The position numbers and the translations under genes are program-made. Shown piece after piece: positions 42,821 through 44,162 of a stretch of 52,913 bases of DNA. The notes below the pieces were generated by a model. It searched no databases. It saw only the letters and a program-made list of their open reading frames with translations, and was not told the DNA's origin. Origin of the DNA: Candidatus Latescibacterota bacterium. Its GTDB lineage: Bacteria; Krumholzibacteriota; Krumholzibacteriia; WVZY01. Position 1 is the stretch's first letter. Each line of letters begins with the position of its first letter. The stretch is from the NCBI GenBank assembly GCA_011772205.1, contig WVZY01000040.1, forward strand, positions 1 through 52,913, given 5' to 3'.

Positions 42821-43864
42821 TCATTTTACGATCAGAGCGTTTGTCCCCCTCTTTTTGACCCTTCCGATGATGGAAGCATGGGGATACACCGGTCTCAGCG
42901 AATTGACGAGGTCGCTGCCCGCATCCCCGGGTAAGGCAATGAGGAGCCCTCCGGATGTCTGTGGGTCGTATAGAAGATGCTGGAGCGGCTCGTCTAACTC
43001 CGAGTTTGCAGAGATATTCCCTTCAACAAACGCTCGGTTCGTGCCCCCGCCCGCCGTGAGCAACCCTTGCCCGGCAAGTTCGAGCGCCCCATCCAACAGA
43101 GGTACATCCTGAGATGATATCTCGCACGTGACCTCGCTCGCCAACGCAAGTTCCAGCGCGTGCCCGAGCAATCCATAACCGGTGATGTCCGTGCACGCGT
43201 GAACTCCATATTCGAGCATCCTGCGCGAGGCTTCCCGGTTTAGCTGCGCCATGATTTCAACGAGTGCCCCTTCACTGTCGGCCCCGAGCTTATCCGCTCT
43301 CAAGGCCGTCGAAAGCACACCGGAGCCCAGGGGTTTCGTCAGGATGAGAACATCTTCAGCCTTCGCTCCAGCATTGGTCACCACCGCGTCCGGGGTGACC
43401 CTGCCGACGACGGCCAAACCGTATTTCAGCTCTTTATCCTTGACCGTATGCCCCCCGACAATGACAACGCCGGCATCTTCCGCAGCCCGCAGGCCGCCCT
43501 TGAAAATTTCACTAAGAATTTCCGAAGGGAGTTCTCCTTCCGGGAAGCCAGCGATATTCAGAGCCGCAAACGGCTCACCGCCCATTGCATAGACATCGCT
43601 CAGCGAGTTGGCCACGGCCACTCGTCCAAAATCGAAGGGATCATCTACCACCGGCTGGAAAAAATCCACCGTCAGCACGAGAGCCGAATCCGAGCCAATC
43701 CGGTATACTCCGGCGTCATCGGCGGTATTGTGACCAACAATTAGATTTGGATGCATCTGGCGCGGCAGTTCCCTGAGGGCCTCACGCAAACCCGTTGCGC
43801 TGAATTTGGATGCTCACCCGGCACAGGTGGCATATTTCGTGAGCCGTACCTTTTTCCTTTTCAT
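42821..43864 (-). CDS. selD: Selenide, water dikinase (selenophosphate synthase) containing selenocysteine at an in-frame TGA
   Basis: SelD makes selenophosphate from selenide and ATP for selenocysteine and selenouridine synthesis. The body (from codon 26) shows 'TADDAGVYRIGSDSALVLTV', 'FGRVAVANSLSDVYAMGG', 'VVIVGGHTVKDKELKYGLAV' and 'LLYDPQTSGGLLIALPGD', all canonical. A conventional start at TTG 43789 would remove the active site. Reading upstream in the same frame gives an ATG at 43864, then KYATCAG-[TGA]-ASKFSATGL: TGA at 43816-43814 falls where Cys/Sec stands in SelD, followed by the conserved Lys20. The full product is 347 residues with Sec17. AAAGGGAA lies 12 bases before the ATG. It is last in the leftward run after a TusA-like gene. 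Confidence 0.88.
43784..43816 (-). promoter_or_regulatory. SECIS-like hairpin for selenocysteine insertion in selD
   Basis: Directly after the TGA (43816-43814), 14 bases precede a stem CGCAA (43799-43795), a five-base loop CGGGT and TTGCG (43789-43785), extended by a G-U pair. The position (loop about 20-24 bases beyond TGA) and GGU-containing apical loop resemble bacterial SECIS elements such as that of fdhF. Folding was done by eye. Confidence 0.6.
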
Positions 43865-43934: not shown

Positions 43935-44162
43935 TTATTTCTTCTGAACGAAGTATCTGTACACCTTTCCTTCCTTAGTCATTGACTTTATTTCATGTCC
44001 CTTACTTTTACACCAAGCAGGCATGTCATGCTCTATCGCCGGATCATCCGAAATGACCTCAACAATGCCTCCGCTGTCGAGATTCTTTATCGCCTCAGCA
44101 GTTTTGATGACAGGGATGGGACAAAAGAAGCCCCTTGCGTCTACGACAATGTTAATTTTCAT
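43935..44162 (-). CDS. TusA/SirA-family sulfurtransferase-like protein, probably selenium-related
   Basis: 75 residues covering one TusA domain: VVDARGFFCPIPVIKTAEAI holds the reactive Cys14 in the family's CPxP motif, followed by the beta-alpha-beta fold and 'DDPAIEHDMPAWCKSKGHE'. TusA family members carry sulfur as a persulfide; those beside selD (YedF-type) are thought to act in selenium trafficking. Here the gene directly precedes selD in the same direction, with a hairpin between. A second Cys (about residue 51) in AWCKSKGHEI is typical for the group. Start ATG at 44162 without a good ribosome-binding site. Confidence 0.88.
   Translation of the reverse strand: MKINIVVDARGFFCPIPVIKTAEAIKNLDSGGIVEVISDDPAIEHDMPAWCKSKGHEIKSMTKEGKVYRYFVQKK

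Follow-up and report, generated by a model that had tools for sequence, protein, structure and literature searches.

The window, that is, the whole 52,913-nucleotide stretch of contig WVZY01000040.1 (Candidatus Latescibacterota bacterium) analysed here, carries on its minus strand a selD gene for selenide water dikinase at 42821–43864. The gene starts with ATG at 43862–43864 and stops with TGA at 42821–42823, and its 347-residue translation contains a single internal TGA (43814–43816), read here as selenocysteine (Sec) at the catalytic position 17. The full frame matches the TIGR00476 selD profile at 366.6 bits (cut-off 125) over model positions 1–309 of 311, and its alignment with the E. coli-type SelD 3u0o begins at residue 2 (E=3e-70, residues 2–325), with DDAGVY, SDVYAMGG and TDITGYGLLGH aligned and the Asp-rich motifs retained. 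In the same alignment U17 lies opposite the active-site Cys (Cys17 of E. coli-type SelD; 'CAGUASK' vs 'AGCGCK') and Lys20 is retained; the motif around the TGA, C14-A-G-U17-A-S-K20, thus comprises CxxU and the catalytic Lys. Table-11 gene calling yields only a 322-residue form (42821–43789) that starts at TTG 43789, within the 3′ arm of the hairpin described below, and loses the active site, whereas the ATG at 43864 is supported because the RLT-YA-CAGU segment of relatives is preceded, at a similar distance, by a Met. The initial annotation had placed the gene, TTG 43789, TGA 43816–43814 and ATG 43864 correctly, as translation confirms; its reading of YATCAG-U-ASKF as the SelD active-site segment, with Sec for Cys and Lys three residues on, agrees with the 3u0o alignment, and its expectation that standard calling would delete the active site is borne out by the gene-calling output.

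Directly upstream of selD, at 43935–44162 on the minus strand, lies a 75-residue ORF of the TusA/YedF-like sulfurtransferase family (PF01206, 83.5 bits) with a Cys-containing CPIP motif; its score does not reach the equivalog cut-off for either YedF or TusA. YedF-type proteins are named selenium-metabolism proteins in NCBIfam. As the same kind of ORF stands directly upstream of selD in four loci of the same family (L046, L062, L063 and L065), it is a probable partner gene of selD, and its product might carry selenium or sulfur to SelD.

Conservation of the catalytic codon

SelD loci were collected from named genome contigs and 146 whole genomes and aligned with the TGA marked. A single alignment column holds TGA in 34 distinct loci (the window gene and 33 others, from independent assemblies) and TGT or TGC in 19 distinct loci, and the RLTxYAxCAG segment that precedes it is conserved as protein. 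The TGA form is found in all same-family genomes and in the same-order genome searched (L046, L062, L063, L064, L065, L042). The nearest named relative, from a Candidatus Krumholzibacteriia MAG (L046), is 62% identical, and in the gene tree the window SelD groups with the same-family and same-order Sec-SelDs with a support of 97/89. Within the class, a SelD match over the cut-off with one TGA is present in 66/80 genomes (G000–G079; counted by hand), the position of the TGA having been checked residue by residue in the 34 aligned loci; selA is present in every one of the 66 except G040 and G058. Three genomes of one genus (G041, G051, G055; assemblies 80–84% complete) have selA and no full-length SelD match, which may reflect gaps in the assemblies or else another source of selenophosphate.

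A SECIS hairpin supported by covariation

A bacterial-type SECIS hairpin, GCGCAA-CGGGU-UUGCGU with a G in the apical loop, is predicted at 43784–43800 on the minus strand, 16–32 nt downstream of the first UGA base. Counting from the TGA as position 0, bases 16–21 pair with bases 27–32 around the CGGGU loop. Folded freely, the 51-nt segment from the TGA is no more stable than its shuffles (z +1.1), and because the minimum-energy fold of this segment is uninformative a comparative test was used; the hairpin is supported by comparison between loci and not by its folding energy. All six pairs are formed in 9/9 members of the clade that includes the window gene (54/54 cells), with two-sided changes in four of the six, and the covariation score of this nine-locus clade was reached by 1/500 shuffles, versions slid along the sequence being 13–48% paired. 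Over all 34 Sec-SelDs, 76% of cells are paired and no shuffle reached the covariation score, the same six pairs being incomplete in the more distant members. A seven-pair version is 73% paired in the Sec genes versus 35% in the 19 Cys-SelD controls. These covariation counts come from unselected sets (A2 and A3), the pre-selected set of 17 hairpins (A1) having served the covariance model only; their weight is limited by the protein constraint on the hairpin codons, for which the Cys paralogues, coding a similar segment, serve as the control. Run over the 4.1-Mb genome, the covariance model hit this gene only (E 7e-9; next best 0.6), a score that arises by construction as the window's own sequence is in the model, and found no other convincing hairpin site in the whole genome.

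Selenocysteine machinery and a second likely selenoprotein

The genome, a Krumholzibacteriota-like draft MAG of 4.13 Mb that is 96.5% complete, contains selA on contig C8 (474 bits), selB on contig C12 (384 bits) and a tRNA-Sec gene on contig C34 (72.6 bits, over the cut-off), which ARAGORN calls as tRNA-SeC with the anticodon tca (UCA). The initial annotation had predicted SelA, SelB and SelC elsewhere in the genome and had held that their absence would speak against a Sec reading; all three genes are present.

Further selenoproteins were sought by family searches, as a sample of the selenoproteome. A thioredoxin-domain frame on the minus strand of contig C47 (L084) holds one TGA, at contig position 126783, in the context WFPT-U-GGC. 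The frame corresponds to a TPR-type lipoprotein with a C-terminal TlpA/ResA-like thioredoxin domain, and standard calling splits it into two ORFs. Its homologues in seven genomes (G001, G005, G009, G018, G048, G075, G085) share the TGA position, downstream of which lies a hairpin of GCGUGG-AGUUG-CCACGC type or a version of it altered by matched changes. The C47 lipoprotein is thus, as judged from this conservation, a likely second selenoprotein, so that Sec use in the genome would not depend on SelD alone. Formate dehydrogenase gave no match over the cut-off in the genome search, and no TGA was present in its weak matches.

A second SelD fused to NifS

A second SelD match (404.6 bits) is encoded on the minus strand of contig C25 (L058:9417–11636), in a stop-free frame of 739 residues whose SelD active site has Cys. 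Both domains lie in this one frame: PF00266 (Aminotran_5/NifS; 267 bits) at residues 4–366 and SelD (402 bits) at residues 397–704. The N-terminal part aligns with IscS, GHKLY corresponding to the PLP-lysine segment and GAACHADD to the active-site-cysteine segment, and the SelD part carries its Cys in the motif GLGCACKLRPQ. The common NADH-dehydrogenase fusion was considered for this protein and rejected, the N-terminal domain being NifS.

Related NifS-SelD fusions occur in 14–15 of the 80 genomes of the class and also in G080, G108 and G123, three genomes that are more distantly related. In the gene tree the fusion SelDs cluster together (98/91) and are separated from the group of Sec-SelDs that surrounds the window gene, which argues that the C25 SelD is an old paralogue and not a recent copy; on this phylogeny it is a separate paralogue and not a Cys version of the window gene. 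The initial annotation had regarded an alternative selD copy with Cys as a refutation of its Sec reading. Such a copy does exist, but the Sec reading stands, because this copy is a paralogue distinct from the window gene, both forms occur together in six further genomes of the class (the pair being found in G000, the present genome, and in G004, G005, G009, G013, G023 and G031) and most genomes with a TGA-SelD show no Cys copy. In some nearly complete genomes (G020, G029) the fusion is the only SelD and occurs together with selA, a pattern which suggests that it can supply the Sec pathway alone. Neither the selenouridine marker selU (TIGR03167) nor the Se-cofactor marker yqeB (TIGR03309) was found in the present genome, and both SelDs therefore probably feed the Sec pathway. 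Given the Cys-SelD, the window gene need not be the sole selenophosphate source of the genome.

Alternative readings of the TGA

If the TGA were a real stop, selD would be a pseudogene or would encode an N-terminally truncated SelD from TTG 43789, with the NifS-SelD fusion doing all the work. The retention of the active-site motif in the Cys-SelD of the same genome would allow this, but such a stop is difficult to reconcile with a TGA that recurs at the catalytic codon in numerous genomes and phyla, with protein conservation on both sides of it and no other stops, and with a covarying hairpin alongside complete Sec machinery; the TTG start, moreover, deletes the catalytic residue and falls inside the hairpin. 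We consider a real stop highly improbable. In selenoproteinless Hymenoptera, SPS1 is reportedly read through without Sec insertion (PMC4561486), and the UGA of the window gene could on this precedent be decoded as Cys or Trp by reassignment or suppression. However, selA, selB and tRNA-Sec are all present, TGA is also the normal terminator of the same ORF, and the residue aligned with the TGA elsewhere is Cys, the usual counterpart of Sec, all of which makes such decoding very unlikely. As the genome is a metagenome-assembled draft, a sequencing or assembly error that changed TGC or TGT to TGA was also weighed, the initial annotation having itself raised an error at 43814–43816. An identical TGA stands in 33 further, independently assembled loci, together with a hairpin that the Cys genes lack, which leaves this a negligible probability; the recurrence of the TGA at one codon, together with conservation of the preceding protein segment, excludes chance or base error.

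The window gene is hence read as a SelD selenoprotein, by family membership and by all the sequence-level defining features tested. Its product is almost certainly an active selenophosphate synthetase and a selenoprotein in its own right, with Sec inserted at UGA codon 17 by SelA, SelB and tRNA-Sec; we infer both insertion and catalysis from the sequence. Sec-SelD is a well-known kind of gene to which the window gene adds one more member. The reading corrects a gene from which automatic calling removes the catalytic residue, and it adds a little-studied phylum to the Sec users.

Comparison with known SelD systems

The SelD of Aquifex aeolicus (PDB 2yye/2zod) and metazoan SPS2 are examples of Sec-containing members of TIGR00476. 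The window SelD resembles them in family, in carrying Sec as the catalytic residue of the N-terminal loop, in the Lys three residues on and in the hairpin right after the UGA, and differs from this reference in the TusA-like gene directly upstream. Sec was present in 19% of prokaryotic SelDs in a 2015 survey (PMC4561486). Unlike most Sec-SelDs, the window protein has CxxU (Cys14-Sec17), which is the rule in same-family loci, whereas an ocean survey (PMC2398784) reported it for only some 5.6% of the single-domain Sec-SelDs.

NifS-SelD fusions also occur in Acanthamoeba and Naegleria. Among prokaryotes, the fusion was known from Geobacter FRC-32 only as of 2008 (PMC2398784) and from two instances as of 2015 (PMC4561486). 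The C25 protein shares with the fusion of Geobacter sp. FRC-32 an N-terminal NifS and a C-terminal SelD, and differs in having Cys (GLGCACK) where the FRC-32 fusion has Sec and in coexisting with a stand-alone Sec-SelD. One Sec-SelD and one Cys-SelD in a single bacterium were noted in 2005 for Photobacterium profundum, in which the Cys copy adjoins ybbB (selenouridine) and the Sec copy adjoins selAB (PMC1273633); the present genome likewise has one of each, but no selU or yqeB match, and its Cys copy is a NifS fusion. The literature covered here is that of open papers, so more recent descriptions of a Sec-SelD paired with a NifS-Cys-SelD may exist. This pairing is the part of the analysis that goes beyond routine, and the addition is modest.

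Proposed mechanism and a possible division of work between the two SelDs

In the proposed mechanism, tRNA-Sec(UCA) would be charged with serine and then converted by SelA, and SelB would bind the hairpin just 3′ of the UGA and bring Sec-tRNA, such that codon 17 is read and translation goes on. Within the flexible N-terminal loop, Sec17 together with Lys20 would bind and activate selenide, and ATP would be split to give selenophosphate, which feeds SelA; the product of SelD would therefore be needed for SelD's own synthesis. The Cys-type NifS-SelD fusion plausibly makes selenophosphate independently of Sec, with selenium handed over from the NifS active site. It is conceivable, although rather doubtful, that the two SelDs split the work, the fusion recycling selenocysteine selenium by covalent hand-over from NifS and, requiring no Sec, starting or restarting the Sec system, and the Sec-SelD, with its TusA-like neighbour and a possible resolving Cys in CxxU, using free or carrier-bound selenide. 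If true, this would be a bacterial answer to the chicken-and-egg problem of a Sec-SelD that is needed to make Sec. The recurrent pair bears on the priming of Sec-dependent SelD and on the channelling of recycled selenium, and allows one to test whether selenocysteine recycling and selenide use fall to different enzymes.

For human SPS1 and SPS2, separate roles in selenocysteine recycling and in selenite assimilation are given as a proposal in a reference-list entry (Tamura 2004, as listed in PMC6770646), and one account reports that human SPS1 does not make selenophosphate (PMC3218224). The two cases share the presence of two SPS paralogues in one organism, and a comparable split in the bacterial pair is hypothetical; unlike the C25 fusion, human SPS1 is not fused to NifS.

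As a separate observation, genome G024 has beside its NifS-SelD fusion a third, stand-alone SelD without TGA (L077; Cys motif EYGGCSAKLP), and G037 has a similar match; a second SelD therefore recurs even where the stand-alone copy is without Sec.
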